21,414 nt of DNA from a virus, in IMG/VR virus record IMGVR_UViG_3300050821_006905, positions 1-21,414 of that record; one strand, written 5' to 3'. Below the pieces are notes generated by a model. It was not told where the DNA came from and did not search any database. It saw only the letters and a list, made by a program, of their open reading frames with translations. Shown in pieces: positions 2,663-21,414 of this stretch (position 1 is its first letter; every line of letters starts with the position of its first letter). Both the position numbers and the translations under genes were made by a program.

Positions 2663-2671
2663 AGTTCCATT

Positions 2672-2746: not shown

Positions 2747-2751
2747 AAAAG

Positions 2752-2757
2752 CCTCCT
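2752..2757 (-). promoter_or_regulatory. Strong ribosome binding site for the 24-aa ORF
   Basis: The minus strand reads AGGAGG, CTTTT, ATG: a perfect anti-16S match at good spacing, partly inside the TAG stop of the tail fibre gene. It is the main reason to treat the short ORF as translated. Confidence 0.65.
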
Positions 2758-3928
2758 ATCCAATCTTTTCTAGATATGGGTTTATGACATATCCTGGATT
2801 GCTAGTACACCCAGTTCCCAATGTATAGGTCGTTGAAAATTGAATATTTGTAGCAGATGCGGCTCTAATTAGCACCATCGGGGAAAGAATGTTTGACGAA
2901 GCGCTAATTGACAGCGGTTTACTTGCCGTTCCATTCCCCACGATTACAAAACCAGTATCAGCGGAAAATATTTGACTGGTTCCGCTCGATGGATCAGTCC
3001 ATAAAACGTTCGCTAGAATCGTAGTATTGCCGGTGCACCCAACCCCAACCACACCTTGATTTACATAAAAAACAATTCGATATACTGAAGAAAGTCCGAA
3101 ATTAATTGGTACCGCTGTCATCGTTGTAGCCGGTATAGACGTAGATGAAGAAGTTGAAGTGCTATAAACGATACCTGCTGCCAGGGCCCAAGTTCCATCG
3201 CCACGCCAAAAAGTAGAATTAGATGCATTGGTGCCGCTGTTTAAAAGCGTGACAGGGAAAAAATTCGCCGTTCCTCCAGCAGTACCGCTAAACGTAGGGC
3301 TTGCAATTGTTGGATTACCGGAAATCGTCCCTGTTATCGCGGGACTTACAATCGTTGGCGTTGTCAGCGTCTTATTCGTCAGCGTTTGCGTCCCCGTCAG
3401 CGTCACGAAGCAATCCCAAATCGTAGTAAATCCACGAAAGCATGGAATGTCGGACCTGTACGCAAGCTCTCCGGCTACGCTGCTCGGATCGACCGTCCCG
3501 CTTGCGACGATGAAGTTGCTGCCACTATTGATGATCGACCACGGATTTTTGTTGATTTCCTTCCAGAGCTGCGTTCCTTCGCTTACGCTACAAAGCGTAT
3601 TCGCAACGCCTGTATTCGCTACGATATCGTATCCGACGTTCGTCATCCAGACGGAAGCTTCTCCAGCAGCGTCAAGCGTAAGCGGGTTACTAAGTTGATT
3701 CACGCCGCCGGAATCGGCATAGATCGCTTGCCGCGTCGAAGTCCCTGTTGCGAAGAAATCCATACAGCCACTGGCGAGCGGTACACCTGTAGAAGAGAGA
3801 AACTGCTGGCGCGCGAGTTGAAGCGGAGCGACGGCGACTTGAGCGCGTCCTACGCACGAAAATAGTGCTAGAATAACGAACGTGCAAGTCGTTCTTCGCG
3901 TCGCTTTTATTTTTCTACTAATGTTCAT
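2756..3928 (-). CDS. Tail fibre protein with signal peptide
   Basis: A 390-aa fibre protein. Residues 1-29 form a signal peptide: a basic n-region (RKIK, RR), core CTFVILALFSCVGRA, then Q30. Residues 31-110 match the N-terminal virion-attachment module common in phage fibres (QQFLSSTGVPLASG, then an Ala/Thr stretch, NPLTLDAAGEASVWM). Around residues 180-250 it has the typical fibre repeats LTGTQTLTNKTLTTPTI and STFWRGDGTWA. The C-terminal 130 residues are beta-rich with two TGC or VGC sites and probably form the tip. Six cysteines remain after cleavage. GGAG lies 9 bases before the start, 23 bases after the ejection gene. The 3' third of the gene is visibly AT-richer, suggesting an exchanged tip. 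The fibre role is well supported by motifs; the meaning of the signal peptide is not known. Confidence 0.82.
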   Translation of the reverse strand: MNISRKIKATRRTTCTFVILALFSCVGRAQVAVAPLQLARQQFLSSTGVPLASGCMDFFATGTSTRQAIYADSGGVNQLSNPLTLDAAGEASVWMTNVGYDIVANTGVANTLCSVSEGTQLWKEINKNPWSIINSGSNFIVASGTVDPSSVAGELAYRSDIPCFRGFTTIWDCFVTLTGTQTLTNKTLTTPTIVSPAITGTISGNPTIASPTFSGTAGGTANFFPVTLLNSGTNASNSTFWRGDGTWALAAGIVYSTSTSSSTSIPATTMTAVPINFGLSSVYRIVFYVNQGVVGVGCTGNTTILANVLWTDPSSGTSQIFSADTGFVIVGNGTASKPLSISASSNILSPMVLIRAASATNIQFSTTYTLGTGCTSNPGYVINPYLEKIG

Positions 3929-3951
3929 CGTTCGCGTTCTCCAAGCTTTCT

Positions 3952-5475: not shown

Positions 5476-6956
5476 TATTGTGGTTTCTTTTGCTGCGCGA
5501 GCCATTCGGACGGAGAAAGAATTTTCTTAGCAGCAGGTTCTTCTCCGAAATTGGCTTTCCCTTGCCGTCCCTGCTCAACTTGCGCCTTGAGCGCATCACG
5601 CTTCGAGTTCATTAACTGAATCGCACTCGCAATAGCTCCTTTAAGCTGCGCCGAAGAGTTCGCAGCGCTGAACGGTTGCTCAACGGCCTTGATCTCCGCA
5701 TCCGTCGCTTGACCACCTTTGAAAACTTTCGACATTTCTCCAGCTAGAGCATTCTTCACAACATTGAAATTCGTTACCGCATCTTTGCCAAGCTCGACGT
5801 TCAAACGATTGCCGATCTTGTTGTAAGTCTGGAGATTCGTATTATCAAGCGCATTCGCATCTTCCTGCAACTGCTTCGCGTGCTCGATTGCTGTATTGAA
5901 GTTCGTAAGATTCGTCGCAATCGCTCCAGAAGTCGCGGATTTCATCACGCCTTTTTCGATGTCATAGTCCGCCGTCGAGTAATTCGGGTATTTCTCTAAA
6001 ATCTGATTAACCGCCGCTTGCTTTACGGCCATTGGTGCGCGCATCGGAATAACATCCGAAAGTTTTAACTTCGCACCAGGAGCAGCAAGAGCATCGATAA
6101 CCGTATCAGTTAGCGGAGCTTTCGCACCGCCAGCACCAAACTGCGCCATGATTTGCGCCATCGGATTAAGCGAAGCGTGCCATTTCGCAAAATCGGCTGG
6201 CCCTTTACCGGGATTTTTCGCAAGCCAATCGGCCATTACACGCTGATCAACAGGACCGCCTTGCGCCGTAAGCATCTTCGTATGTTCTTCCGTAGCTTTC
6301 GACGTGGCAGTCTCTTGTATCGCTCTTATAGAATCCTGCTTCGCTTTATCGGTATCTGCGGAAGTCTTCGCATCCGCAAGCATCTGCGCGTGCATGCCGA
6401 TAGCCGATTCCGTAGATTGCAAAGTATTATCATCGAAACTTTTCAATTGAAGCTTGGAAGTATCAACTCCAAGCTTTTGAAGGTTCGGTAATCCTGCTTG
6501 GAAAATAGCAGGCCGCTTCGTAACGTCCGGCTCGCTACGCATGCCTTCGAGTAATTCATAAGAAGCTTTATTTTTCGCCGCTTCGTTATTGCGAACCGTC
6601 TCCGCCGCCGAAGCAAGGTCTTTCGTTGTCGTCGCGTATTGCATACGCATTTGATTCACAGTCGAGGGATTGACTTGCTTCCCAAGTGCTTCGTTGAAAT
6701 ATCCTTCCGTATCGAATCCCGTTACGTTTCCTTTATCGTCTTTCGTGACGTGATTCGGAGCAAGAGATCGCAATGTCATTTGATCTTTAAGCGCCAACTC
6801 TCGCTGTTGATTCTCTTGGCCTAACGCCGTCTGCTGCAACTGCTGCGTCTGATTCTGCGATTGCGAATTGCGAATCTGCTGGAGTTTCGCATATAGCTCC
6901 AGTGGCGATTCTTGTTGCGTATGAACGGCAAGCGCGGGAAGTGGAATCGATGCCAT
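5475..6956 (-). CDS. Ejection / DNA-transfer protein, P22 gp20-like position
   Basis: A 493-aa, cysteine-free, mostly helical protein, probably packaged in the capsid and ejected with the genome. Residues 20-65 are very Gln-rich (QSQNQTQQLQQTALGQENQQ), which is typical of podophage ejection proteins. The C-terminal third (about residues 350-470) carries a helical pattern common in this group: NTAIEHAKQL, then ALDNTNLQTYNKIGNRL, AGEMSKVFKGG, ATDAEIKAVEQPFSAANS, AIQLMNSKRDAL. GGAG lies 8 bases before the ATG and the upstream stop sits inside that spacer. Its order (second of three) matches P22 gp20. No enzymatic motif was recognised. Confidence 0.65.
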   Translation of the reverse strand: MASIPLPALAVHTQQESPLELYAKLQQIRNSQSQNQTQQLQQTALGQENQQRELALKDQMTLRSLAPNHVTKDDKGNVTGFDTEGYFNEALGKQVNPSTVNQMRMQYATTTKDLASAAETVRNNEAAKNKASYELLEGMRSEPDVTKRPAIFQAGLPNLQKLGVDTSKLQLKSFDDNTLQSTESAIGMHAQMLADAKTSADTDKAKQDSIRAIQETATSKATEEHTKMLTAQGGPVDQRVMADWLAKNPGKGPADFAKWHASLNPMAQIMAQFGAGGAKAPLTDTVIDALAAPGAKLKLSDVIPMRAPMAVKQAAVNQILEKYPNYSTADYDIEKGVMKSATSGAIATNLTNFNTAIEHAKQLQEDANALDNTNLQTYNKIGNRLNVELGKDAVTNFNVVKNALAGEMSKVFKGGQATDAEIKAVEQPFSAANSSAQLKGAIASAIQLMNSKRDALKAQVEQGRQGKANFGEEPAAKKILSPSEWLAQQKKPQ

Positions 6957-6959
6957 CGC

Positions 6960-7772
6960 TTATTCTCCCGGCCCGTATCCAGTATTTCCTCCAGGCGCCT
7001 GCCCTGGAGGATAGAGATTCTTTAGCATTGCATATTGAGCAAGATTCCCGAACGCTCCGCCAATCGCATTCGCGCCACCAACGTAGCCACTCGCTTGCGC
7101 TGCCGCCGCGTTATTCATTTGCTGCCCGATCTGCGCGCCGCCAGTCAGCGAGATATTCGCAATGTTCCCTGCCGCTGCTTGTCCTTGATTGCCAAGCTGT
7201 GACGCGGAAGTCTGGCCGAGTCCCGCAAGCGAAGCGTAACGATTAAAGATATTTGATTGTCCTTGCTCGAACTGATTGTATCCTTGCTGATACTGCTGCA
7301 TCGCGCGGTTATAGACATTCTGATAGTTCTGCTCACCGGCCTGTTGCCCGAATTGCGTAAGCGCTTCGCCGGTATTCCCAGTAAGAAGATTCCCGCTCGC
7401 AGCGGCAGAGTTCGTAAGAGCATGTGTACCTTGCTCAAGTGCAAACTTATAACCTGGCTCATTTTGTGCTTGCTCCATCGTCGGAGCTTGAAATTGTCCC
7501 GTCCATGGCGCTAGCGGGCCTTGACCTGTAAGCGCTTGGTCCTGAAGGCCGGAAAGCGTGCCGATAGCACCTTGCCCCGCTTTGATCCACGGAGCCATGT
7601 TGCCTTGCTGCTGTTGCCATACTTGTTTCTGGAAATTTAGCGCATCCTGCTGCGACTGATACTGAAGCTGCGCGGCATTATTTGCAGCATCAGCTTGCGT
7701 ATGAGCAGCTAGGCCGGAACCTACAGCTCCAATGATCGCTCCACCGCCAATCGCTACGGCAATAAAGGACAT
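6960..7772 (-). CDS. Ejection / DNA-transfer protein, P22 gp7-like position
   Basis: A 270-aa protein beginning with a hydrophobic Gly-rich segment (FIAVAIGGGAIIGAVGSGLA, residues 3-22), followed by Gln-rich coiled helix (residues 28-60). The centre has a motif very common in phage DNA-transfer proteins: EPGYKFALEQGTHALTNSAA, then GNLLTGNTGEALTQFGQ, QNYQNVYNRA and NRYASLAGLGQTSA (about residues 105-190). The tail is Gly/Ala/Gln-rich. No cysteine. The start overlaps the end of the cupin-like gene by 19 bases. It is the first of the three ejection genes, as gp7 is in P22. The motif makes the DNA-transfer family assignment fairly safe; the exact role is inferred. Confidence 0.75.
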   Translation of the reverse strand: MSFIAVAIGGGAIIGAVGSGLAAHTQADAANNAAQLQYQSQQDALNFQKQVWQQQQGNMAPWIKAGQGAIGTLSGLQDQALTGQGPLAPWTGQFQAPTMEQAQNEPGYKFALEQGTHALTNSAAASGNLLTGNTGEALTQFGQQAGEQNYQNVYNRAMQQYQQGYNQFEQGQSNIFNRYASLAGLGQTSASQLGNQGQAAAGNIANISLTGGAQIGQQMNNAAAAQASGYVGGANAIGGAFGNLAQYAMLKNLYPPGQAPGGNTGYGPGE

Positions 7773-8215
7773 TCCTTGCCCCCTATCGCCGCGTTAAACT
7801 CCTCGAACGTATCGACTACGAGCAATTTTTCCGCTTTCTCCGCGTCTTTCTCGTTGCAAGCGTGGATAGTCGTCCACACTGTTTCTTCGTGAGCGTAACC
7901 AACTCGCTTGATTCCAGGCCGAGAAATAAGAGTCGCTGGAGCCTTGATTCGCTTAACGCCATTCTCCGTAAGAACGGAAATATCTCCCTTGGAGATGATA
8001 TTGATATGCTCGAAGAGATGAATTTTTCCGGTAAGCAAAGTTCCTTTAGGGATAGTGATTTCACGGGCGTACAAACCTTCCGCGAAATAATGAACAGGCT
8101 CTATTAGAATCTGTCCAGGCTGCTCGCGCATCTTGTCTTCTAACTGAAGAATCTTTTCGCGCAGCACGTCTTCACCGCTCGTAAGTGTAGCGGGCGAGTC
8201 GAAAGGATCAACCAT
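7754..8215 (-). CDS. Cupin-like phage structural-region protein (153 aa)
   Basis: A helical N-terminus (residues 14-33) is followed by a beta-rich domain with cupin-like character: HYFAEGLYAREITIPKGT, LLTGKIHLFEHINIISKGD, then RIKAPATLISRPGIKRVG and YAHEETVWTTIHA. Histidines at KIH, FEH, YAH and TIH could line a barrel. Similar small cupin-like proteins are, from general knowledge, often found among podophage structural genes with no established job. It lies between the gp10-like and gp7-like genes, where P22 carries the tail needle gp26 and gp14. ATG 8215 is chosen because it follows the previous stop by 11 bases; a GTG at 8257 would add 14 residues and overlap. Its Shine-Dalgarno is weak, so coupling is likely. 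Confidence 0.65.
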   Translation of the reverse strand: MVDPFDSPATLTSGEDVLREKILQLEDKMREQPGQILIEPVHYFAEGLYAREITIPKGTLLTGKIHLFEHINIISKGDISVLTENGVKRIKAPATLISRPGIKRVGYAHEETVWTTIHACNEKDAEKAEKLLVVDTFEEFNAAIGGKECPLLP

Positions 8216-8226
8216 TCGTTCAGCTT

Positions 8227-8478
8227 CTAGAACGCTACTGGCACGAACTTGATCCACTTGTTCACCGTCCCATCGTAAACGTAATAAAACCCGCCGCCCA
8301 CCGCCGTCTGTCCGTGTTGACCGGGAGAATTAGCGCTCACTGGTGCTTGCTGATTAGCTGGAGTCTTCAGCTGTTGCGCCGTAAGCTGTAAATGTATATC
8401 CCAATCGCGCGTCAATCTTCCATTCTTATCGGTGATCGGTACTTCCGACGGCGCGCGAAATGGAAGCTGCTGGCTCAT
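8227..8478 (-). CDS. Small phage tail-region protein (83 aa)
   Basis: The ATG at 8478 overlaps the stop of the gp10-like gene (ATGA), so translation is probably coupled; this start removes 34 spurious upstream codons that lie inside the gp10-like gene. The N-terminus (FRAPSEVPITDKNGRLTRDW) is followed by a helix, and the C-terminus ends GGGFYYVYDGTVNKWIKFVP. That ending resembles the short aromatic beta module (Y-Y-V-x-D-x-T-x-x-x-W) often seen at the end of small phage structural proteins. At 83 aa it is far too short to be a P22-type tail needle, although it is in that gene's position. Function unknown. Confidence 0.65.
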   Translation of the reverse strand: MSQQLPFRAPSEVPITDKNGRLTRDWDIHLQLTAQQLKTPANQQAPVSANSPGQHGQTAVGGGFYYVYDGTVNKWIKFVPVAF

Positions 8479-10037
8479 GCAACCTCCGCCATCTGATGCG
8501 TCAAGCGCTTCCGCGGCGATGGCTGCGTCTTCGGGTTCACATAAGCATCGATAAATCGCCACGGTACAGGATCGCTGCAAGAAACCTCGAATACCATGTC
8601 ACGTGCCCGCCCTAAGCGGCGGAACGAGGCGCGCTGGCTATACTTACCAGCTTGTCCGCAATCAGCTATGCGTGTCTGCCCGTAAGTATGCCCACCGTTA
8701 CGCGAACAGCGCAGCATGAGCTGCGGGCCGCGAGCATTTCCAGCCCCATCGAGCAGCGGCGGTTCTGGCCCAAGCCCCGTTTCCAGATAAACCTCCAATT
8801 CGTTGTAGCGCATCCATTGATGCTCGACATTGATATGCGGCGCGCGGCGCAAACGGCGAATCGGAGCGCCATTGTCAGTAACAAAATTCCACCCGCCTCC
8901 AGCTTGAACAGGGGATGACATTTGATACGTTCGTCCACTCTGACGATCTCCAACCAAATGCTTCCCAAAATTGAACGTATGGCAAATCGGGAGCGCTGCT
9001 TGATAAGCTCCGATGCGCTGATTCCAGAAACCGCATTTATGCCAGAGCCCCGTCGATACGTCGTACGCTAACGTTACTTGCGCGGAAGGAAAAGTAGTTC
9101 TCCAAATCGAATGACCATTCTCCTGATACGCAAAAGAAATGGCATCGGAAATCCTTGGGAACTGTTGCACCATCGTTTCTATAGCATGCGTCGAAATACG
9201 CTGAAAAGTAGCGCCGCTCGTCCGATAAGCGATTCCTTGCCCTTGATCGTTCCTCGCTCCCCACAAGAAAATCGCATTATCTAGCTGACTGATAGCAAGC
9301 GGAGCAGCGCAGCCTTGCTCTGCGAAACCGCTAGGCATTGGCGCTAACGGAAAAGGAAAGCCGCCAATGTCATAGTCCGATTCTGTTTGCTTCGCGCCAA
9401 ACATCCACAGGAACCGATGGTCGGCAATCATGCCAATGACGTTATCGGCATATGTATTGATTATTTTGATTTGAAGCGCGGACCATCCCGTAGCGGTCGC
9501 ATCAAAAGAGTTCGAGGAATATACAGTTTGCGACGAAGCAACGAGCAGGAAGAAGAAACTGTCAATAAAAGCAATCTCCGTTACTGTCGCAGGCTGCCAC
9601 GGTCCTGCTACTAGACCCGTAAACGTTCCAGCAACTATATTCGGAACTTGCTGTGTCGCAAGTTGGTAGGAATATAGATTCCCCGCGCTTACGATAGCAA
9701 GTTGCTGAGGACAAGCCGCGAAACTTACGAAGCTACCATCGTTTCCAACATTCCCGATAGCGGTTACGTTTCCATTCGCAAGCTCTTCATAGAGCGTAGC
9801 ATCAACTACTTTGAACGTTCTCCCGGCGCTTGGCCCCGTCGTGATCGTATAATTCCCGCGTACTTGATTCCCGCCAGGATTGTTGAATTGCGAAAGACCG
9901 GGAGTCGAATAGAGCGTCATCGCGGATACGCCCATCTCGCTTTCGACTTTCTCTGGGAGCAAATTAATACACTCCTGCGCGTCCGCGTTAACGGACTGCG
10001 AAGTGTATGTTCCGCCGCAAAAGCCGATTCTGCTCAT
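8475..10037 (-). CDS. P22 gp10-like packaged-DNA stabilisation / tail hub protein
   Basis: A 520-aa protein. In P22, gp10 closes the portal-gp4 channel after packaging and forms part of the tail hub (472 aa). The start resembles that family: CGGTYTSQSVNADAQECINL, then LPEKVESEMG and LYSTPGLSQF (residues 8-52), the usual N-terminal 'N-L-P ... S-T-P-G-L' arrangement. The rest is beta-rich with propeller-like strands (AFIDSFFFLLVAS, HRFLWMFGA, AIFLWGARNDQG). The C-terminus has SRNGGHTYGQ and RRLGRARDMVFEVSCSDPVP, which is frequent in this protein type. It follows the gp4-like adaptor by 12 bases with only a weak Shine-Dalgarno. Order and motifs agree well, but no search was run. Confidence 0.8.
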   Translation of the reverse strand: MSRIGFCGGTYTSQSVNADAQECINLLPEKVESEMGVSAMTLYSTPGLSQFNNPGGNQVRGNYTITTGPSAGRTFKVVDATLYEELANGNVTAIGNVGNDGSFVSFAACPQQLAIVSAGNLYSYQLATQQVPNIVAGTFTGLVAGPWQPATVTEIAFIDSFFFLLVASSQTVYSSNSFDATATGWSALQIKIINTYADNVIGMIADHRFLWMFGAKQTESDYDIGGFPFPLAPMPSGFAEQGCAAPLAISQLDNAIFLWGARNDQGQGIAYRTSGATFQRISTHAIETMVQQFPRISDAISFAYQENGHSIWRTTFPSAQVTLAYDVSTGLWHKCGFWNQRIGAYQAALPICHTFNFGKHLVGDRQSGRTYQMSSPVQAGGGWNFVTDNGAPIRRLRRAPHINVEHQWMRYNELEVYLETGLGPEPPLLDGAGNARGPQLMLRCSRNGGHTYGQTRIADCGQAGKYSQRASFRRLGRARDMVFEVSCSDPVPWRFIDAYVNPKTQPSPRKRLTHQMAEVA

Positions 10038-10049
10038 CGTTCAACACTC

Positions 10050-10898
10050 TTAGTCATTTGTCTGCTTCGACCGATAATTGTAATCACTTCTCTTCCCGCT
10101 ACCTCGTCCTCCAGGTATTCCAGCATCCCGCGTCCCTGCTACTGGCGAAGTGATATTTAGCACCGTAAACCGCCTTAGCGCTGCGCGCTTAAGCTGTTCT
10201 AGGTTCGCCGTCCACGGAAGATCGAAGTCCGGCGCTATCATTTCTGCGAGCGAATAGACGAACGCCATCGTTCCGCCTTGAGGAAGCTGGACACTATCCG
10301 CAAGCTGATACTGACTAAGCAGCGTTTGCACTAACAGTTCAAGCGGATATGCTACGGTCGGAACAACCCACATAAACATCGAGCCGTTCGGGTAATCTTC
10401 TTCGTAGTACATATCCGTTGGCGTGACGCTTTGTACTCCCGGAGCGGCTTTCCTTGACCACCACTTGCCTTTATCCTGATGGACTGTAACTTTTAAGCGT
10501 ACCGTTGTCTGCCCAATCCACGGAGCGGCGGCAAGCGCATTAAGTAGAATATTCGCGTCAAGAATCTTTACCGGGCGCTGAAGGATTCCAGCCGCTTGGT
10601 TGAAATTCGCCGTACCCGTAGGCCCAATTAAATGCGGCTGAAGGTTCGGCGTTAACTTACCAACGAAAAACGTATTAGCCCAAACGTAAGCTCTCGCAGC
10701 ATTCCACGAATCAATTAAGATATTCGCTTGCGCTTGAACATCGGCGGCCTCCGCCGCCTCCGGTATATCCGCGGGGTCAATAGCGCCAATCTTTACCATT
10801 GCCATCTTACAAAGATCGAGCAGTTTGAACGAACCCGTGCCTCCAGGGGCTAAGTACGACCCTGCAACTACGGGCACTTGTGGAGGAAGTACCGGCAT
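10050..10898 (-). CDS. P22 gp4-like head-tail adaptor
   Basis: A 282-aa protein, longer than P22 gp4 (166 aa). In P22, twelve gp4 copies bind the portal and start tail assembly. Residues 20-75 show the typical pattern of this adaptor group: KLLDLCKMAMVKIGAIDPAD, then an Ala/Glu-rich stretch, QAQANILIDSWNAARAYVWA. Near the C-terminus, LAEMIAPDFDLPWTANLEQL followed by KRAALRRF matches the helical end seen in such adaptors. The extra length may be a beta insertion at about residues 80-180 (VRLKVTVHQDKGKWWSRKAA). GGGAG lies 9 bases before the ATG; the previous stop is 12 bases upstream. Its neighbours (coat region upstream, gp10-like downstream) fit the same assignment. Confidence 0.75.
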   Translation of the reverse strand: MPVLPPQVPVVAGSYLAPGGTGSFKLLDLCKMAMVKIGAIDPADIPEAAEAADVQAQANILIDSWNAARAYVWANTFFVGKLTPNLQPHLIGPTGTANFNQAAGILQRPVKILDANILLNALAAAPWIGQTTVRLKVTVHQDKGKWWSRKAAPGVQSVTPTDMYYEEDYPNGSMFMWVVPTVAYPLELLVQTLLSQYQLADSVQLPQGGTMAFVYSLAEMIAPDFDLPWTANLEQLKRAALRRFTVLNITSPVAGTRDAGIPGGRGSGKRSDYNYRSKQTND

Positions 10899-10912
10899 TC
10901 AGAGCGCTCCCT

Positions 10913-11368
10913 TTACGCCGCTACTGTCTGAGCTTGTTCTTCCTGCTTCTGCTTCAATTCCGCCGCGAGTTCGCGCTCCAGCCGCTTAATGTTCTCGTCG
11001 CGCGGGACTGCACCACGTTGCAGCTTGTCGATATGCTTCTGAGTTGGCTTTGCCGTCCAACCCTTCTGCTTCATCAGCTCGCCGTACTCTTCCTCGTCTT
11101 CGACGCTTTTCATCGAGCCGCTTTCGTGATAGACGAGTTTCGGCCATGCTCCCGCAGGCGGAACTTGCTGGAAATGGTCCGGCGACTTTGCGATGCATAG
11201 CGCCTTGAGCTTCGCATCGAACGGCGCTTCGCCTTCGTTGATCATATGGCACATGATGCGTTCCATATTCTCATCGATGCGCTTGTCGGCTTTTCCGTTC
11301 GCGTCCTGGAACGCTTCCGGGAATTGCTGCTTGCATTCTTTGATGCTGAGACGCTTTTTCTTTGCCAT
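10913..11368 (-). CDS. Hypothetical phage protein (151 aa)
   Basis: Not recognised as a named family. It is highly charged, with a basic start (MAKKKRLSIKECKQQFPEAF). The middle carries WPKLVYHESGSMKSVEDEEE followed by YGELMKQKGW (about residues 75-107), which resembles a short motif in many small phage proteins ('P-x-x-x-Y-H ... V-x-x-x-E-E ... GW'). The C-terminus is a Lys/Glu/Gln coiled helix (NIKRLERELAAELKQKQEEQ). It sits between the probable decoration protein and the gp4-like adaptor, so a head-completion or connector role is possible but only inferred. Confidence 0.7.
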   Translation of the reverse strand: MAKKKRLSIKECKQQFPEAFQDANGKADKRIDENMERIMCHMINEGEAPFDAKLKALCIAKSPDHFQQVPPAGAWPKLVYHESGSMKSVEDEEEYGELMKQKGWTAKPTQKHIDKLQRGAVPRDENIKRLERELAAELKQKQEEQAQTVAA

Positions 11369-11378
11369 GCCTATCTCC

Positions 11379-12119
11379 TTATTTTGTAAACCACGTTCCG
11401 GCGGTCGTGCAATTGAAAATTAGCATCGTGCCAGCAGGCACAGCGATAGCAGTGTTTGCGGCAAGCAGGTTGATGTTTTCCCCTACTGCGGGGAACACAT
11501 TCATTGAGTTAGCCGCGGCCCTGTTAATAACGGTGATTTGCCCACCGACGTAAGACGCCGGCAAAGTAATAGAATCAGCTGCCGTAGCTACGATGGCGAC
11601 CGTATTCATCATCCGGTTGATCGCCGGGCCACCGCCCTGCCCACCACCCGCTTTTGCGACCAAGTTATCTTGCGAAGAAAGAGTTTGAAGGCCAGGCCCG
11701 CCGAAACCGGTTGCAAGCCCTTCCGTTTCCCAGAAACCTGCGAATGTACTGACATAGATGCAGACAGAATTCTGCATCTGGCTGACGCCAACAGCCGCCG
11801 CTTGACCATCGATAACATCTGCACCGGAACCAAATACCTGCATTGGATTCGCACCGCGATTAATGAGCATAATATCTAATCCAGGCGCGGCGGGCGGTAA
11901 TTTAACGGAATCTCCGGCAGTAGCGACCGTAGTTACTTTCGCTGTCTGGCCGGTGATCTGCGTAGCATTTGCTTGCCCACCTCCAGCGAAAGCTACGATA
12001 AGAGTCTGTGAAAACTCTTGAAATAAACCTTGAAACGTGAACCCTGAAAGAATCTGATCCATCGCATCTTTCGTGAATGCTCCGAATTTCGTAACGAGCG
12101 GCGCGCCTACTGAAGACAT
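11379..12119 (-). CDS. Probable capsid decoration / head-fibre protein with duplicated domain
   Basis: A 246-aa protein. After a helical N-terminus (residues 1-45), two copies of one beta domain appear, at about residues 60-132 and 172-246. They share VTTVATAGDSVKLP / VAIVATAADSITLP, then INRGANPMQVFG / INRAAANSMNVFP, a turn with DVIDG or ENINL, and end IYVSTFAGFW / FNCTTAGTWF. A Gly-rich linker (AGGGQGGGPA) joins them. This beta module is common in phage surface proteins. Position just after the coat gene suggests a decoration or head-fibre protein. AAAGGA lies upstream of the ATG, and a GC-rich stem-loop precedes the gene. Fold and role are inferred; the duplication is directly visible. Confidence 0.65.
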   Translation of the reverse strand: MSSVGAPLVTKFGAFTKDAMDQILSGFTFQGLFQEFSQTLIVAFAGGGQANATQITGQTAKVTTVATAGDSVKLPPAAPGLDIMLINRGANPMQVFGSGADVIDGQAAAVGVSQMQNSVCIYVSTFAGFWETEGLATGFGGPGLQTLSSQDNLVAKAGGGQGGGPAINRMMNTVAIVATAADSITLPASYVGGQITVINRAAANSMNVFPAVGENINLLAANTAIAVPAGTMLIFNCTTAGTWFTK

Positions 12120-12147
12120 ATTCTATTTCCTTTCAATGAAAAGGTGA

Positions 12148-12173
12148 GGGGAGGTCGGAAACAGACCCTCCCC
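12148..12173 (-). terminator. GC-rich stem-loop before the decoration gene (attenuator-like)
   Basis: On the minus strand GGGGAGGGTC pairs with GACCTCCCC around the 7-base loop TGTTTCC (9 bp, one bulged base). It is followed by TCACCTTTTC, a weak U-run. It lies in the 66-base gap between the 287-aa gene and the 246-aa gene. It could be a weak terminator lowering expression after the coat region, or an RNA-processing or stability element. The downstream genes have no visible separate promoter, so complete termination is unlikely. Confidence 0.45.
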
Positions 12174-12185
12174 CTGTTGAATTGT

Positions 12186-13049
12186 TTAACGGCTCGGATA
12201 CCACTTCCCGTCAGGTCCGTTCCACTGCCAGCATTGCATAATGCCAACAACTGCCGTAGTGGCGGCTCCGATGTTATTCGTCGCCGTAGTCGTGTAAGCA
12301 CCCGTAGGAATAACGCAGAATTGCGCCGTTTGTGAATTAACCGTTGCGGCTCCAGCAACACCGATATTCTGGTTCCCGGTGAACGTCCACGATGTAATCG
12401 CGTTCGCACCGGAAATCTTGAATACCGGCCCGCCAACGTTCGTAGCACCAGCAACGCTCGCAACAGTAGCTTGCGAAGCACCGAGCGGAAGCGCGGGATT
12501 ATTGAATCCCGGCGTCCAAACCAGTGAAGCTGCATTGCAATACCACTGCGTGCCGTTACGGATATTTACCCACGGCGAAACAACAACGTTATTCAAGATG
12601 CATGGCACATTGGAAGTGGAAGCAGAGCCTCCAATTCCGCTACTGCCAGGGTCTTGAACGTAGAAAAAACGCGGTGGCCCGAAGAGTACCATCGCACCGT
12701 TTGAGTGCGGCGTCGCTACAGTCGAGTTGATGCCGCGCACAACGGTTAGCGCCGTACCGTTTACGCCGATGACAAGCATCTCTTCGCGATCAACGAACAG
12801 CGCAGTTTGAAAGTTCGGCTGCCCTGCTGTAATCGCAAGAAGCGGGTTAGCGCCAACGATACTCGTTGCCGACGTAACGGTGATAATCGTCGGAGCAGGA
12901 ACGTTTCCCGTCGAGCCCGGCCCAAGATACTGACCGGCTACGGCGGCGGAAAGCGTTGTCTGCCCAAGGAAGTTCTGCTGCGCTTGGGCTGTCACTCCAC
13001 AAGCGGCAAGCAAAACTGCGAGAACTGCGAGTTTAAGATAGTTCTTCAT
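12186..13049 (-). CDS. Beta-rich surface-type protein with signal peptide, next to coat gene
   Basis: A 287-aa protein of unknown function. The frame opens with a GTG at 13070, but AAGGAG at 13064-13059 points to ATG 13049, giving MKNYLKLAVLAVLLAACGVT followed by AQA|QQ. That is a good signal peptide, cleaving after residue 23. It also contains LLAAC, a lipobox-like site with Cys17, so a lipoprotein is an alternative. The mature part has ALFVDREEMLVIGVNGTALT, then VVRGINSTVATPHSNGAMV and LFGPPRFF, a pattern seen in phage structural proteins near the head genes. It ends with aromatic modules (WVNIRNGTQWYC; CWQWNGPDGKWYPSR). Four cysteines remain after cleavage. Position suggests a minor capsid or surface protein, but the signal peptide argues for export; both are inference. 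Confidence 0.7.
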   Translation of the reverse strand: MKNYLKLAVLAVLLAACGVTAQAQQNFLGQTTLSAAVAGQYLGPGSTGNVPAPTIITVTSATSIVGANPLLAITAGQPNFQTALFVDREEMLVIGVNGTALTVVRGINSTVATPHSNGAMVLFGPPRFFYVQDPGSSGIGGSASTSNVPCILNNVVVSPWVNIRNGTQWYCNAASLVWTPGFNNPALPLGASQATVASVAGATNVGGPVFKISGANAITSWTFTGNQNIGVAGAATVNSQTAQFCVIPTGAYTTTATNNIGAATTAVVGIMQCWQWNGPDGKWYPSR

Positions 13050-13058
13050 GTTCGTTAG

Positions 13059-13064
13059 CTCCTT
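13059..13064 (-). promoter_or_regulatory. Ribosome binding site that fixes the 287-aa start
   Basis: AAGGAG, 9 bases before ATG 13049, overlaps the TAA stop of the coat gene (TTAAGGAG). It rules against the upstream GTG start, which would place the site inside the coding region and hide the signal peptide. Confidence 0.75.
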
Positions 13065-14304
13065 AACCACAGAGCACCCTCCCAGCGCAGCTATCGGCGT
13101 AATACTGGCCGAAGCCGATTAGCGTATCCCAACTATTCGTCATCTTCTTTTCCGTCGGTGAATACATCCTGACGAATCGAACCGGGATGCCCGTCTTTTT
13201 GTCGCGTGCTTGTGAAGTCAACTCCGTTGCTTTCGGAGATTGGAGTTTCAAGCCAACCATCGCGTAAGCATCTTTGTTGAGCCACAAGCCTTGAGCGCCG
13301 ACTTTCCCGTTCGGAGCCGCAGTGCCAGGAAATAGCGTTAACGCAGCGCCAGCAGCGGGCGTCGAATCAACGTTCTGATACTGCGAACCGGGTAGGAAAA
13401 TAGCCGGTGAAATGTTCAGCAAGTCCCCGCCACCGCCAACTGCGACAAGTGGAGACGTAACAGTGAAGGTTTTCTGAACCGTCGTAACGACACGGCGTGT
13501 CATCGGGTTGACAAGGTTGACGTTTGCGATTCCGATTACGTCGCCGACGTTGAACGTATCGCCAGCCGTCGCCGTAATCTGAAGCTGCGTCCCTCCAGCG
13601 CTTGCGACTGTAAGCGTAACGCCAGCCGCCCACGTTCCCGCCGTATGGCGGAAAAGCGATTCCGATTCGTACCAGTCGAAGTTCCAAAGACGGCCAAGAG
13701 AGCCTTCCTTGTACTGTTCGCTGATTTCATCGGACGGATTCAATAGCGCTTGAAGGACTGGAACCAACGCCGTATAGACGCTCGACGGAACGATCAGCGC
13801 GTTATCACTGCCGCGAGTCGCACCGGCCAAGTTCTTGAGGCGTTGCCGCGCTTGCATGAACGTTGTCGCTGAATTCGGATCGGTCCCGAGCGCGCCAACG
13901 ATGTTATTAGCGTTTTGATACGCGAATAGCGCAGCGCGCGTGTCCATTTCCTGCGCTATCTGCTCCATCGCTGGGCGCAGATACTGCTCCGAGATTTCCT
14001 CTTTCGAGCGCTCCATAAGCAGAGCTTCCTCGAAGTCGTCAAACTCGAAGTCAACGCCGAAAATCTGGTTGCACGCGACTGTCGTATTGATGCGGTTGAT
14101 CGGTTGCGGAGAATAGCCCAAGCCGTCGCGAATCAAAAAGCGCTGCGGAAGTTTCTTGCGAATAACTTCGCCAACAGGGAATTCCTTCTCGAATTCCTTG
14201 TTGTCGGAAGTATTCATATACTGGCAAACTTCCAGCATGTTGATCAGCAAACGGAGAGCTTCCTCGGCCACCCAATCGGGAAATACATATTGGCCTTCTG
14301 CCAT
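13063..14304 (-). CDS. Major capsid protein, P22 gp5-like coat
   Basis: A 413-aa coat protein (P22 gp5 is 430 aa) that forms the icosahedral shell. The N-terminal arm and helix (FPDWVAEEALRLLINML) are followed by a charged stretch (KEFEKEFPVGEVIRKKLPQR). RDGLGYSPQPINRINTTVAC and the helix with RSKEEISEQYLRPAMEQIAQ are typical of P22-type coats. The family signature RLWNFDWYESESLFRHTAG is at about residues 205-224. A beta insertion at about 225-330 (LTVASAGGTQLQITATAGD) corresponds to the P22 I-domain or telokin-like insertion. The C-terminus carries TGIPVRFVRMYSP. It sits directly after the scaffold gene, as in P22. The Shine-Dalgarno before the ATG is unexpectedly weak for a major protein. 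Confidence 0.88.
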   Translation of the reverse strand: MAEGQYVFPDWVAEEALRLLINMLEVCQYMNTSDNKEFEKEFPVGEVIRKKLPQRFLIRDGLGYSPQPINRINTTVACNQIFGVDFEFDDFEEALLMERSKEEISEQYLRPAMEQIAQEMDTRAALFAYQNANNIVGALGTDPNSATTFMQARQRLKNLAGATRGSDNALIVPSSVYTALVPVLQALLNPSDEISEQYKEGSLGRLWNFDWYESESLFRHTAGTWAAGVTLTVASAGGTQLQITATAGDTFNVGDVIGIANVNLVNPMTRRVVTTVQKTFTVTSPLVAVGGGGDLLNISPAIFLPGSQYQNVDSTPAAGAALTLFPGTAAPNGKVGAQGLWLNKDAYAMVGLKLQSPKATELTSQARDKKTGIPVRFVRMYSPTEKKMTNSWDTLIGFGQYYADSCAGRVLCG

Positions 14305-14357
14305 TGTCGTTTCTACTCTCTAGCGGTAGCATGCCGCTTAAATTCGCTCGGTCGTTT

Positions 14358-15410
14358 TCAGTTGACTTTCTTTTTCCGCTTTTCGCGATCTTCTTTATTC
14401 TTGCGCTCACGATAAAGCTCACCACGCTCGGAAGGCGACAAGTCCTTACGCCGCCATGCGGCATCGGCGGAACCGTCATCCTCGGGGGATGACGAACCGC
14501 CGCCAGCTTCAACGGGAGGCTTGCCAGCTTTCGTTAGATTTTCTTTTTTAACAGGCTCTTCTTTTTTTACCTGCTTAGACAATTCCGCCTTCACGCCAGC
14601 TTCGAGCGCAACTAGCTTGCGAATCGCCCGCGTTACGGTTTTCGGGTCTTTCGCTTCTGCAAGCAATTCGTCAAGCTTCGGGTCAGTACCGAGTACGTAA
14701 ACGAGATCGGTGAAAACCTCGGAATCGTTCAAGAACATGAAGAACGCCGGAGCCGCTTGGAGTGTTCCTGCAAGCGCGTCCACAGTTTTCTTTACGTCGA
14801 TTCCGTCAGCTTTCTCCCCGTACTTCGTTTTTAGCTCAGCTTGCCAAGTCTTGATCGATTGTTCTTGCTGTTGAGCAGCAGTACGAATCTGAACCTGCTG
14901 ATTCGTGTAGGCTTCCTTGTCGGTTTCGTATTTGTCGAGCGCCGCTTCATACTTCTCGTAATCCAAAGCGCCAGCGGCGTCGCGGAACTGCGCCATCGAC
15001 GGGCGTTTCGGGAGTTCGAGGAGTTTCGGTCCGGCATCCGCTTCGACTTTCTTTTCTTCTGGCTTTTTCTTTCCAGTGCGGAATTCTTCAAGTTCTTTCT
15101 CGGCAGCTTCTAGCTTTTCCCGCGCTGTATTACGCTCAGCTTCAAGCGTTCGCCAGTTCTCGTCTTGAGTACGTGCTTTTTTGCCCGGCCCTGACCCGGA
15201 CTTCTCTCCCCCATCTTCGGAGGCAGGTGTAGACGCTGCCGAGGCGTCTTTCGACTTATCGTCTGACGGCGAAACTTTTTTATCATCAGCGGGAGCTTCA
15301 AGCGCAGGCATCTTGCCCGTCTTGAGCCACTCCGTACGCTCCGCGTCGCTGAAATGCTCGACTTCTTTGTGTTGCGGCGGATTATTCACCGCCGGTGTTT
15401 GCGTTGCCAT
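14358..15410 (-). CDS. Capsid scaffolding protein (P22 gp8 position)
   Basis: A 350-aa, highly charged, Lys/Glu-rich protein between portal and coat, exactly where P22 has gp8 (303 aa). The start is ATG 15410: AAGGAG at 15422-15417 is 6 bases away, whereas the GTG one codon upstream is too close. Residues 30-80 are low-complexity (DDKKVSPSDDKSKDASAAS). Residues 82-115 form a coiled coil (NWRTLEAERNTAREKLEAAE). Helices rich in Gln/Lys follow. The C-terminus (LSPSERGELYRERKNKEDRE, then KRKKKVN) is strongly basic, as expected for the coat-binding end of P22-type scaffolds. It overlaps the portal gene by 29 bases. Assignment rests on position and composition. Confidence 0.72.
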   Translation of the reverse strand: MATQTPAVNNPPQHKEVEHFSDAERTEWLKTGKMPALEAPADDKKVSPSDDKSKDASAASTPASEDGGEKSGSGPGKKARTQDENWRTLEAERNTAREKLEAAEKELEEFRTGKKKPEEKKVEADAGPKLLELPKRPSMAQFRDAAGALDYEKYEAALDKYETDKEAYTNQQVQIRTAAQQQEQSIKTWQAELKTKYGEKADGIDVKKTVDALAGTLQAAPAFFMFLNDSEVFTDLVYVLGTDPKLDELLAEAKDPKTVTRAIRKLVALEAGVKAELSKQVKKEEPVKKENLTKAGKPPVEAGGGSSSPEDDGSADAAWRRKDLSPSERGELYRERKNKEDREKRKKKVN

Positions 15411-17610
15411 CACTTGCTCCTTGATCTTGCGGCTGTAGCGCAGCCGCTTGCGCCGCTAATTCCTTTTCGTGCCCGTGCTGCTCTTGCTGCATTCCAAGTT
15501 CATGCGCAGCACCGTGATTCTCTTTCCAGAACGCCATGAACGTTTCCATGCGCTGATTCATGTCCTGCGCTTTTGTCTGAACTTCCGCAATTAGCACCTT
15601 AACGTCCATATCAAGCTGGTGCATTTTCATCGCGTACTCGTTATCGATAACCTTTCCGGCTTTTTCGAGCTTCAACTTCTCAAGCTCTTGCTGCATCTCG
15701 ACGATAACTTTCTGCTGCATTTGCGCTTCTTGCTGCGCTTTTTGAAGCGCCGCGCCTTGCTGCTTCTGAGAGTCCGGCGGGTCGAGCGTATCCGCCATCT
15801 CATCGCCAAGAGGTCCGAGCGCCGCGAGACGGATATTCAACGCTAAGAGCTTCGCCGCCGCACCTGGAGGCGCTATCGCCGCAATCTGCTGAAGTTCACC
15901 CATCACGCCTTGGAGTAAGTCTTTTACTTCGTCGCGCTGTGAAGCGGAATCCTTGCCGGTCGATACCGTAACACCATGATCGCCGGTCACGGCATCGTAA
16001 TGCTGTTGTACCGCTTGCCCATCTTTTCCTTTCTCTATATACGTTTCGTCGTTAATCGTTAGCGTCTTGAACTCGCCATCGGCTTTCATAATCGCAATAT
16101 CGCGCTTCGTATCGTAAACGTATGGGAACCAAGCATCGATGATGCGGCCAGCGTGTTCGAGCGAGAAATTGAAGTTATCGATGAAGTGGAACGTTCCGCG
16201 ATCTTCGTTCGACTCGATTTCTTTCAGTGCAACGCCGGACTTTTCGTTTACGCGTTGCGCTGCTTCGGGGAGATTACTTCCACCGCATGCCGTACGAATC
16301 GCGCGCCGCGCGGCTTCGGCGAATACCTCATAAGATTGAAAGTTCGGCTGGAATTGCGGGCGGCTTGGTAACGGCAGTAATTTGTTCGGGTCCGTTGGGT
16401 CCGTAACAGGATCGACTTGAATAAACGGACGCGGAATCTTGTTCAAGTTCTCCCATGCGTCGCGGTCCGTTTCAAATTGCCCCGTATAACCTTGCACTGG
16501 CGACTTCGGAGCCATACCCGCTTCTTCTGCTTCTGAAGACCGGATGTAGCAATACGCCATGTAAGGATCACGCGCTAGCCGAATCAGCGATAGCAGTCGG
16601 CGCTTCGCACCGCTGCCTTCGTCAATCCACATCTCTTTACCGGCGACAAGTACGAGAGGAATCCAGCGAATCGGTATTTCATCGCTCTCTTCGAGAATCT
16701 CAAGCCCGTTCGTCCAATACTGTTTGATGCGCCGCGTTTCGATAGTGCGATCACGCCGAATGCGCTTCTTGTTCTTCTCGTCGGCGAGCCACTTATCTTC
16801 ACCGCCAGGAAGTTCGTCGCCGTAAAGTGCCGCGCGGTCTTCGACGTTCTTCAATCCATCAAGCAAGTACAATTTCTTCTTCTTAATGATTGCTTTGTAA
16901 TACGCTGCGACGCGAACAATCTTCTCTTGCTGCCAGCCGGGGGCTTCTTCGGCGTAGCTTCCTTGCCAATCCGTATAGCGAGCGTTCTTCCATCGCCGCT
17001 TAAACTCACTACGCTGGATACGCTCCTCGACGAAACATTCCGTCATATCGGAAGCGTCTTGCTCCTTGAAGGCTGGATTAGGAAGTACGCTGTTCGGATT
17101 TGGAATGCGATAAATATAGAGTTCTTGCTCGAAGAGTTTTTCTGGCGATGATGCTACTAACTCGCTGTATTGTTCCTCCGTCAGCCCATCAGCGACTAGC
17201 CGCGAATTGATGCCAAACCAGCCGAAGCTGCGCTCCGCAGCGCCTTGAAACGCTGTCGTAAATGCACTCTGTGCGCGCGAATTATACTGAATCTCACGCA
17301 TCTTATCTTCTCGCAACTGCGCTGTTACGTTCGTCGCTCCGGCGCCACGCGGATTAATCTTAATTGCGCGCTTATTCTGACGCGGGTCGTTTACGAGCTG
17401 ATTCACATACGGCGATAGTTCATCCCATGTCATTACCGGGCGGTCGTACTTATCCCGAAATTCGCGTTCTTTCGCTTCCCACGGATCGCCGCCAACAGCA
17501 AGCATATCCTTGTCGCCCTCTTCGCGGATAGGGCGCCAGGCTTCCTCAAAGGAAGTATAGTTCTCCCTGATTTCTTTAAGGATTGGCGAGTTGGAATTGG
17601 TTTCAGGCAT
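15382..17610 (-). CDS. Portal protein, P22 gp1-like
   Basis: A 742-aa portal (P22 gp1 is 725 aa), the twelve-fold ring through which DNA is packaged. N-terminal helices include YTSFEEAWRPIREEGDKDML and WDELSPYVNQLVNDPRQNKR, then AIKINPRG, a standard P22-portal segment. FQGAAERSFGWFGINSRLV follows. Around residues 450-480, SGVALKEIESNEDRGTFHF followed by IDNFNFSLEHAGRIIDAW matches the conserved 'SG-A ... TFH-FDN' signature. Residues about 613-690 are a long Gln/Glu/Lys coiled coil (QKVIVEMQQELEKLKLEKAG), corresponding to the C-terminal barrel that enters the capsid. The 70-aa gene ends two bases before its ATG; no clear Shine-Dalgarno, so coupling is likely. Confidence 0.88.
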   Translation of the reverse strand: MPETNSNSPILKEIRENYTSFEEAWRPIREEGDKDMLAVGGDPWEAKEREFRDKYDRPVMTWDELSPYVNQLVNDPRQNKRAIKINPRGAGATNVTAQLREDKMREIQYNSRAQSAFTTAFQGAAERSFGWFGINSRLVADGLTEEQYSELVASSPEKLFEQELYIYRIPNPNSVLPNPAFKEQDASDMTECFVEERIQRSEFKRRWKNARYTDWQGSYAEEAPGWQQEKIVRVAAYYKAIIKKKKLYLLDGLKNVEDRAALYGDELPGGEDKWLADEKNKKRIRRDRTIETRRIKQYWTNGLEILEESDEIPIRWIPLVLVAGKEMWIDEGSGAKRRLLSLIRLARDPYMAYCYIRSSEAEEAGMAPKSPVQGYTGQFETDRDAWENLNKIPRPFIQVDPVTDPTDPNKLLPLPSRPQFQPNFQSYEVFAEAARRAIRTACGGSNLPEAAQRVNEKSGVALKEIESNEDRGTFHFIDNFNFSLEHAGRIIDAWFPYVYDTKRDIAIMKADGEFKTLTINDETYIEKGKDGQAVQQHYDAVTGDHGVTVSTGKDSASQRDEVKDLLQGVMGELQQIAAIAPPGAAAKLLALNIRLAALGPLGDEMADTLDPPDSQKQQGAALQKAQQEAQMQQKVIVEMQQELEKLKLEKAGKVIDNEYAMKMHQLDMDVKVLIAEVQTKAQDMNQRMETFMAFWKENHGAAHELGMQQEQHGHEKELAAQAAALQPQDQGASDGNANTGGE

Positions 17611-19279: not shown

Positions 19280-19393
19280 TTACTTTCCTCCTGCTACCAC
19301 CCGATTCGCCTTCGCCCTAATACGCGCCGCGCTTGCCGCTGACAATTTAACCGGCTGCTTCGAACGAACTACGCTGCGCTTAGAACGTTTCAT
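19280..19393 (-). CDS. Basic microprotein (37 aa) between terminase and accessory genes
   Basis: Starts at ATG 19393, which overlaps the large-terminase stop (ATGA), and ends at TAA directly before the next ATG. AAGGTGGGG precedes it. The peptide is very basic (MKRSKRSVVRSKQPVKL, later AARIRAKANRVVAGGK), about one third Lys/Arg. The perfectly fitted junctions on both sides support it. It could bind nucleic acid; nothing more can be said. Confidence 0.6.
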   Translation of the reverse strand: MKRSKRSVVRSKQPVKLSAASAARIRAKANRVVAGGK

Positions 19394-20754
19394 CCCCACC
19401 TTATTCCCGCCGCTACTCTCGACGGCTGCGGCTTAGGCCGCTCTTGCTTCTGTTCGCGTATCGTTACCGCAAGTGTGCGAAACGCATCCGCATCATGCGA
19501 AGCCCAATCGTGTAACGGTTTGCGCGAATACGTTCGCAAATCTTTGTCGAACTCATACTGATAACAGCGCAAGCCGCGAATACCAACAATCTGCTTCGTA
19601 ACAGGTAGCGTGAAGTTACAGCGCTCACTGTCGAAGTAACACTTCGGGAAGATCGCCCGTACCGCCGCAATGCCATCTTCTACACTTAATTGCCGCGCGC
19701 AACGCACACGGTCTTTACCAAATACACTCCATAGCTGCTCTTGAATACTCTTTCCGCTGCCTAACTCTCGCGCAGCGCCGTCCCAAGGCAACGTATGCAT
19801 TCCGTAATGATATTGTCGTTCTTGGAGTTGCTTGACATAAAATGCAAGCGACTCCAGTTCCCCGGCAATGTAATCAACAATTCTGTATTCCATCGGAAAC
19901 GATTGCGCAAGCCAGATGCGAGTATGCGCCGGGCCGATATCCCAAAACGTATCAACTGGCTTTGTTGGGTCATACGGTACACGCCCCGTTAGCCGCCCTC
20001 CAGTTTCGGCGGCTTGAAGTTCTTTCTTATAGATAGCGCCTTCTACTGTGCTTCGCGTCGTGCCTTCGTAGATGTGCTGGCATTCGTCCGGGTCGCGGCG
20101 CAATAAGTCTTCGCGCTCTTTGCGCAACACGTCGGGGAAGAATGGGTTATCGTGCCAGTTGATAAACGAGACCTGAGAATCTTGCGGGCGATTCTGCTCG
20201 ATAGCAAAGAGCTTATAAACTTCGTCGTCTTCAAACTCGGGATTGAAATCAAACCAAAGCTCGCTATCGTACTTGCGGCCCTCGACGAAAATATCACGGC
20301 GTATCGTTGGGAACACTACGTTCAGCGAACGCTTACTCATCGCTTCAGACTGCGAGCCCCACGCGATGTTGACGCCTTCGTAGGACTTTAAGTTGTCGAC
20401 GCTCTGCCGCACACCGGCAAAGAAGAACTCTGTACCGTTATTGCCGATGATGTTCTTTTGCTGGACGCGGTAAAAGTCGCTTAAGTGCATTAATCGGATT
20501 TGGTCAGTGAGAAGTTGATGCACAGATTCTTCAATGCTCCTCATCGTCTCGCGATAACAAAGCACACGAATGCCTTCATTACCGTACTGCTTCGACCAAC
20601 CAGGCCAAAGAAGATCGGGTTGCTTACCAATAAGAAGAAGCGCGCGCGCAATAGACCAAGACTTTGCAGAGCCACGGCCACCGTATGCGACTTTGTAACG
20701 TGAGGGTTGAAAAAGGAATTTCAGCTTCGGAGGGAACCAGACATCAACGTTCAT
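19390..20754 (-). CDS. terL: Terminase large subunit (packaging ATPase/nuclease)
   Basis: A 454-aa motor of the Sf6 gp2 / Terminase_3 type. It pumps DNA into the capsid and cuts it. ATG 20754 overlaps the small-subunit gene by 11 bases; 134 further in-frame codons upstream are only small-subunit DNA read in another frame. Walker A is GGRGSAKS (residues 25-32). The Walker B region, where relatives such as Sf6 gp2 read ICWVEEAEA, here reads IAWGSQSEA (130-138): the acidic pair is Ser134-Gln135. The FDFNP motif (168-172) is present. Nuclease acids are in place: FWDIG (D272), PWDGAAREL (D325) and SHDADAFR (D421/D423). Packaging role is safe; full ATPase activity is uncertain because of the Walker B change. 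Confidence 0.9.
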   Translation of the reverse strand: MNVDVWFPPKLKFLFQPSRYKVAYGGRGSAKSWSIARALLLIGKQPDLLWPGWSKQYGNEGIRVLCYRETMRSIEESVHQLLTDQIRLMHLSDFYRVQQKNIIGNNGTEFFFAGVRQSVDNLKSYEGVNIAWGSQSEAMSKRSLNVVFPTIRRDIFVEGRKYDSELWFDFNPEFEDDEVYKLFAIEQNRPQDSQVSFINWHDNPFFPDVLRKEREDLLRRDPDECQHIYEGTTRSTVEGAIYKKELQAAETGGRLTGRVPYDPTKPVDTFWDIGPAHTRIWLAQSFPMEYRIVDYIAGELESLAFYVKQLQERQYHYGMHTLPWDGAARELGSGKSIQEQLWSVFGKDRVRCARQLSVEDGIAAVRAIFPKCYFDSERCNFTLPVTKQIVGIRGLRCYQYEFDKDLRTYSRKPLHDWASHDADAFRTLAVTIREQKQERPKPQPSRVAAGIRWG

Positions 20755-21283
20755 TTGGCGGGGCGCTTCCGTCGCCGAAACGAATTGTATGGGCGATGGG
20801 ACCGCCGCCTTCGCCAACATGCTCGACGCGATCACGGAAAAGAGAAAGATGCTTACCGAGAAGCTCAAGCGCTTCGCGTTTACTCGCCAATCTGAACTTC
20901 GTACGCTTAATATCGCGTTTCTCTTTCCCGCGCCCCTCGCTGTATTCCTCGACAGTGACCTCTTGGATTGCAGCGGCTTTATCCCGATCAAGATTAGAGA
21001 AATCAACGTATGCATCACCATCCTGTACGCGGATAAAATCTTCCATGTTACTAAAAGCGAGAAGAGCGGTCTCACGGAGTACGCGATCTTTCGTGATTGC
21101 CAGTTCCTTACAAAGCGACTCAAGTAACTTGGCGACTTCTTGTTGAACGTTAACATTCGCTAACAGCCTCGATGCACCAGCTCGCGCCCCTTGCTCGCTA
21201 TAACCGGCGGCGATATAAGCTCGCGTTGCATTAAAATCTTGAACATATTCACGAACGAAAATCTTCTGTCGAGGATCGCGCAT
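20744..21283 (-). CDS. terS: Terminase small subunit
   Basis: A 179-aa protein that would recognise the packaging start site on the DNA and hand it to the large subunit. Residues 5-48 carry the Terminase_2 / XtmA-type signature: QKIFVREYVQDFNATRAYIA, then AGYSEQGARAGASRLLANVN, which forms the N-terminal DNA-binding helices. The middle has TALLAFSNMEDFIRVQDGDA and a helical oligomerisation part (RLASKREALELLGKHL). It lies directly upstream of terL with an 11-base overlap. No good Shine-Dalgarno is visible before ATG 21283. The hairpin tandem array ends 25 bases upstream and is a candidate binding site or leader element. Confidence 0.88.
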   Translation of the reverse strand: MRDPRQKIFVREYVQDFNATRAYIAAGYSEQGARAGASRLLANVNVQQEVAKLLESLCKELAITKDRVLRETALLAFSNMEDFIRVQDGDAYVDFSNLDRDKAAAIQEVTVEEYSEGRGKEKRDIKRTKFRLASKREALELLGKHLSLFRDRVEHVGEGGGPIAHTIRFGDGSAPPNER

Positions 21284-21308
21284 GTCATAGAGGCTCTAAG
21301 AATGATGC

Positions 21309-21414
21309 GGGTGACGAGTCTCTCTTCTCGCCACCCGCTTGGGGTGACGAGTCTCTCTTCTCGCCACCCGCTTGGGGTGACGAGTCTCTCTTCTCGCCAC
21401 CCGCTTGGGGTGAC
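21309..21414. repeat. 33-bp tandem repeat with internal hairpin, at window edge
   Basis: Three complete identical units (starting 21309, 21342 and 21375) and seven bases of a fourth that runs off the end. Each unit is GGGTGACGAG, loop TCTCTCTT, CTCGCCACCC, spacer GCTTG. The arms pair over 10 positions; read from the minus strand the single mismatch becomes a G-U pair, so the RNA hairpin is complete in the terminase direction. Because the arms alternate, each 3' arm can also pair with the next 5' arm across the 5-base spacer. There is no U-run, so it is not a standard terminator. Possible roles are a TerS binding site (pac/cos), a leader RNA switch, or a phage end repeat. The total copy number cannot be seen here. 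Bases 21284-21308 between the array and terS hold nothing recognisable. Confidence 0.85.

Follow-up and report, generated by a model that had tools for sequence, protein, structure and literature searches.

For late operons of 20-25 kb, phages require a means of full-length transcription. In lambda-type late control (PR', Q, tR'), a very long late operon is preceded by a single promoter with a short leader, and the lambda late promoter has an intrinsic terminator behind it that is overridden by the antiterminator protein. The put sequences of phage HK022 serve early promoters, not late ones, and their RNAs suppress pausing and termination through contact with the beta' zinc-binding domain of RNA polymerase. 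The put RNA is about 70 nt long and forms two stem-loops, putL is located just downstream of its promoter, and the RNA acts without a dedicated trans-acting protein (PMC9378689). The cos and pac packaging sites, for their part, are often found near or within terS (PMC9611059). Here we compare with these systems a tandem hairpin array that lies directly upstream of terS in a soil phage. Judged from sequence, the hairpin looks like a gene-control RNA, with a role as a packaging site disfavored, since both hairpin and promoter are retained across relatives with differing terminases.

The stretch of DNA that we analyzed (the window; 21,414 bp, the entire virus record) ends in this array. At positions 21309-21414, TRF reports a repeat of period 33 with 3.2 copies, 100% matches and a score of 212, which is by a wide margin the best tandem repeat in the window. 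The longest exact period-33 run measures 106 bp, compared with at most 45 bp in 200 mononucleotide shuffles of the window, and is the window's longest self-match for all periods from 10 to 200. Between the array and the terS ATG (position 21283) there are 25 nt. The place and perfect period reported in the earlier note were reproduced exactly by TRF. On the minus strand, each unit consists of a hairpin, GGGTGGCGAG-AAGAGAGA-CTCGTCACCC, with one G-U pair (hereafter HP2), plus a 5-nt CAAGC linker. Copies 3 (21375-21402) and 2 (21342-21369) have 10-bp stems, and in the copy nearest terS (21307-21338) the stem is lengthened to 12 bp, with one G-U pair and the 8-nt loop AAGAGAGA, and ends 23 nt from the ATG. 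Pairing across unit junctions is also possible (CTCGTCACCC-CAAGC-GGGTGGCGAG), and the minus-strand fold of 21287-21414 has a z-score of -6.5; the single-wobble hairpin and the exchange of partners between neighboring units, both anticipated earlier, are seen in the folds. As the remaining terS 5' untranslated leader (21284-21306, minus strand) contains an in-frame TAG, translation of terS does not include the array.

The first gene past the leader is terS (20744-21283, minus strand; 179 aa, Pfam Terminase_2), followed by terL (19390-20754, minus strand; 454 aa, Pfam Terminase_3, PHROG 3717 and 2) and the rest of the late operon (557-17610, minus strand), which encodes P22-like portal, coat, head closure and DNA ejection proteins. 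All large window genes down to position 557 are on the minus strand. Four large late proteins of 390-701 aa, encoded at 557-6956 (minus strand), have no PHROG match. Direct repeats of 97, 127 and 98 bp at the termini of three relatives (G009, G002 and G006, respectively; L128-L136) mark them as circular assemblies; these genomes, probably complete, measure 42.7, 43.7 and 40.7 kb. In the circular relatives whose gene order was mapped, an early and a late unit diverge from the intergenic region that holds the leader, the late unit covers about 25 kb on one strand, and no second leader copy was found elsewhere in the searched circular genomes, giving one leader per searched genome.

A TerL scan, run with the TerL of the window and that of one 87% relative, returned 14 contigs with TerLs 67-89% identical, in addition to the contig IMGVR_UViG_3300021088_000043 (L004). 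The latter is the sole other carrier of the 33-mer that we found and belongs to the same species as the window, being 99.98% identical across 14,976 bp (3 mismatches). Comparable leaders numbered 13, namely that of the window's species (read from L004) and those of 12 other soil-phage contigs, including L124 and the otherwise unrelated phage L006 (IMGVR_UViG_3300050821_005257). A strong HP2 is present in 13 of 13 leaders (-19.6 to -28.8 kcal/mol), approximately 23-44 nt ahead of the likely start at the terS position, a distance that depends on the start codons we picked for the first packaging gene. Strong hairpins occur in 7% of 57 more distant terL neighbors (p = 9e-8); the lower GC content of these neighbors (42%) explains part of this difference, and this and the other p-values are optimistic, as the leader sequences are mutually related.

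The HP2 alignment has 91.3% of its cells paired, with changes on both sides in seven of nine pairs. Its covariation score of 0.446 compares with a shuffled mean of 0.258 (0 of 500 shuffles as high) and drops to 0.153 or less once the alignment is slid. Wobble mismatches read on the terS-sense strand comprise 10 G-U and 0 A-C (p = 0.002; 8:0 minus two edge pairs), where the null expectation for a DNA dyad or an opposite-strand RNA is that the two are equally common. In most members of the leader family, the sense strand folds more significantly than the antisense strand. The apical loop AAGAGASA is found on differing stems (L004/L006 and L117/L119), and the loop CCCCA is found in L113, L116 and L121. 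A 5' stem-loop (HP1) is clear in L006, L004, L113, L116, L121, L122 and L124, weak in L109, L117, L118 and L119, and not conserved family-wide; the whole leader block is about 75-130 nt long. Pairing between the loop AAGAGAGA and CTCTTC of the 5' motif, which can form in L004 and L006, is not kept in L028/L113 and was rejected.

Upstream of HP2, at a nearly constant spacing, is a promoter-like signature comprising TWGAC at -35, a weak -10 and ACGTGAC near +1. The 12 leaders with upstream sequence have in common AATTnnCTWKACW, the hexamer of which begins 36-41 nt before CGTGAC, together with a weak GCGYTACTCT-like (TACTCT-like) -10 region. Counted from the -35, CGTGAC falls at about +1 to +6 of the predicted start site. 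The distance from CGTGA to the start of HP2 is 43-45 nt in L006, L109, L111, L112, L117, L119 and L004 (first copy), 61-82 nt in members with a larger 5' stem-loop, and 38 nt in L118. A promoter profile searched against 875 kb picked out the left-out L006 (E = 6e-4) and L124 (E = 7e-4) and made no outside hits in those tests; when the more diverged L109 and L112 were left out, they scored poorly or were missed. For the window phage itself, the promoter is beyond the contig end and was read from L004. Together, the covariation, the strand-specific G-U pairs and the promoter signature directly upstream support the view, raised as a second option in the earlier note, that the array encodes a structural RNA on the minus (terS-sense) strand. 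Position 1 of the 5,138-bp L116 contig is the conserved CGTGAC, the proposed transcription start, which is probably a coincidence.

The same leader stands ahead of TerLs of three families that show no similarity to one another: PHROG 3717/2 (L004), 979 (L006) and 38 (L124). BLASTP gave no meaningful match between the L006 and window TerLs, and the small gene at the terS position of L006 is DUF5681-like. Among leader carriers, TerS N-terminal domains are unrelated. The leaders of L117 and L119 differ, by our count, at 7 of about 82 positions, and their TerS proteins are unrelated (Terminase_2 in one, a 96-aa protein in the other). As L006 shares its replication protein (604 aa, DUF3854; 12316-14130) with L118 and L111 (56-64% identity to their counterparts) while the packaging modules are unrelated, we infer that packaging modules have been exchanged directly behind HP2. 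As a separate observation, TerS proteins with unrelated N-termini (window 20744-20830, minus strand, and L109-L122) share a C-terminal tail like GGPIEHTIRFGDG, which is absent from L006 and L124, the members with other TerLs; it is a probable TerL-docking tail.

From these comparisons, the conserved unit is probably the promoter and structured 5' leader RNA of a late operon of more than 21 kb. Conservation of promoter and leader while terminase modules swap points to a host-facing control RNA, a ready target for assays. The mechanism we prefer is processive antitermination, suggested by likeness in layout to the HK022 put RNA. The conserved promoter (TWGAC -35, weak TACTCT-like -10) would start transcription at about ACGTGAC, the leader RNA would fold HP2, after a 5' HP1 in part of the family, and the transcript would continue from the leader into terS and then through more than 21 kb of head and tail genes. 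The nascent leader RNA may act in cis on host RNA polymerase, as put RNA does, and the polymerase so modified may read through the terminators of the long late operon; extra copies of HP2 would be tolerated or would strengthen the robustness of the signal. A host partner is plausible because unrelated phages share one leader. Several points count against antitermination: HP1 is not conserved family-wide, the spacing varies (38-82 nt), put acts at early promoters, and terminator-like sites are not enriched in the window operon (27 found, 27.1 expected from shuffles) and so give no sign that antitermination is needed. The statement as a whole, that a duplicated HP2 in a late leader RNA acts by antitermination, is tentative and falls a little short of an even chance.

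The leader resembles putL and putR in being a short structured RNA directly behind a phage promoter-like signature (36-41 nt before CGTGAC, the predicted start), in forming two stem-loops in part of the family, and in belonging to a family common to several phage types; the likeness considered is one of layout. HP2 is present in all members and a clear HP1 in only some, and the block is about 75-130 nt long against about 70 nt for put. The leader differs from put in serving a late operon, in its one copy per searched genome and in a hairpin that can be tandemly duplicated. With lambda-type late control the leader shares the arrangement of one promoter and a short leader before a very long late operon, but it has no consistent terminator behind it and its hairpin is conserved together with its loop. 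At the gathering score, Rfam gave no match for any leader-bearing locus, and permissive thresholds gave chance models only, with no plausible sub-threshold match. No meaningful match to the leader was found in phage and plasmid records, nor any paper on a terS-leader RNA or a tandem hairpin in the open-licence literature. We rate this as an undescribed family of phage leader RNAs of a kind already known, those that control long phage operons. A pattern scan of the genomes of 84,980 species for a host origin yielded 16 same-arm hairpins with other loops and flanks, apparently chance matches or terminators; L125, from the last pattern scan, is a chance match within coding sequence; and no tRNA or tmRNA attachment site was found.

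The main rival to antitermination is that the leader RNA is real but acts post-transcriptionally, with HP2 guarding the late mRNA from 5' decay or tuning terS translation. Hairpins at 5' ends commonly stabilize mRNA, every member carries HP2 a short way ahead of its likely start codon, and the stem sequence varies freely, as that of a simple barrier would. However, the apical loop and the initial transcribed sequence are conserved across differing stems and genes, beyond what a plain barrier needs, and HP2 does not cover the ribosome-binding site, so we regard this role as possible but on the unlikely side. Unlikely, too, is that the leaders of soil P22-like podoviruses and otherwise unrelated phages form a new family unrelated to put, one that would modify polymerase in cis at a single late promoter and use HP2 number as an expression tuner. 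We consider it improbable that HP2 is an attenuator, placed as an intrinsic terminator after the late promoter and ahead of terS and overridden by a Q-like antiterminator protein, as at the lambda late promoter. The window's last HP2 copy does score as terminator-like (5 T in 8), and U-rich stretches follow HP2 in L113 and L111, but the combination of GC-rich hairpin and U-tract is marginal in the window's species and absent in most relatives. Since most members lack a U-tract after the stem (e.g., L006, L112, L118, L119, L121 and L124), attenuation is less likely, and intrinsic terminators have no need of conserved loops.

The earlier note had proposed that the repeat serves TerS binding, which would make the array a cos or pac site with repeated TerS-binding sites. 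The position directly upstream of terS, where such sites are often found, counts for this reading, and the leader has repeats and dyads in common with packaging sites. A cognate TerS site should, however, change with its terminase, and the leader does not: it is the same beside TerLs of three unrelated families and beside TerS proteins of unrelated types, which weakens the proposal. The hairpin is also present in a single copy in all relatives, with repetition in one species only, the 10:0 polarity of G-U pairs indicates selection on one RNA strand, and a promoter signature lies upstream. TerS binding is thus left unsupported and a packaging site is, in our estimate, quite improbable; repeats beside terS need not be packaging sites.

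More doubtful still is that the unit is part of a replication origin or a homology linker for module exchange, kept for recombination and not for expression. Phage-specific iteron-like repeats occur just upstream, packaging modules are exchanged directly behind the unit, and similarity between L004 and L006 ends sharply at either side of a single shared 86-bp block (89.5% identity, from ACGTGAC through the end of one hairpin). A linker, however, would preserve neither compensatory pairs and strand-polar wobbles nor a nearly fixed distance from promoter to hairpin.

In L006 there is one unit only, with hairpin and loop identical to those of L004, which argues that the array arose from one pre-existing HP2 by tandem duplication. 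L004 spans the array with both flanks present and holds 71 bp of it, two complete units and 5 bp more (2.15 units). A minimum of two units is therefore real and their number varies, given at least 3.2 in the window, where the array reaches the contig end and the edge hides the true copy number. These sequences identify the array as a recent duplication that is variable in copy number, and CACCC, common to the flank and the 3' arm, could have seeded slippage. Natural carriers of one, two and at least three HP2 copies form a built-in dose series. The hairpin is kept upstream of terS throughout the 13-leader set; its repetition is special to the window's species. A contig break inside an array, also proposed earlier, is supported. 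The window piece from 21308 to the contig end, starting one base before the array, is 107 nt long, which is weakly suggestive of an assembler halting at k=107 as it ran into a longer array. That the copies are nonexistent, an assembly artefact suggested by the array's location at a contig end, is extremely improbable against an independent contig, L004, that resolves 2.15 units with both flanks.

Upstream of the array, away from terS, L004 continues with ACGTGACTCTTCGCCTCCAACGCGAAGCAACTGCC, followed by an intergenic region that is iteron-like and then by the gene for a D5-like primase. Direct and inverted iteron-like repeats (GTGCGAAGGGG, GTGAGCACTCG, AAGAGTAC and GAGTGCAAGAGTGC) are located after the replication module and ahead of the late promoter (L004, 980-1122; L006, 11765-11956; L113, ~4300-4510; L121, ~4250-4450). 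The repeated word is different in each phage, and these repeats are likely a replication origin or operators.
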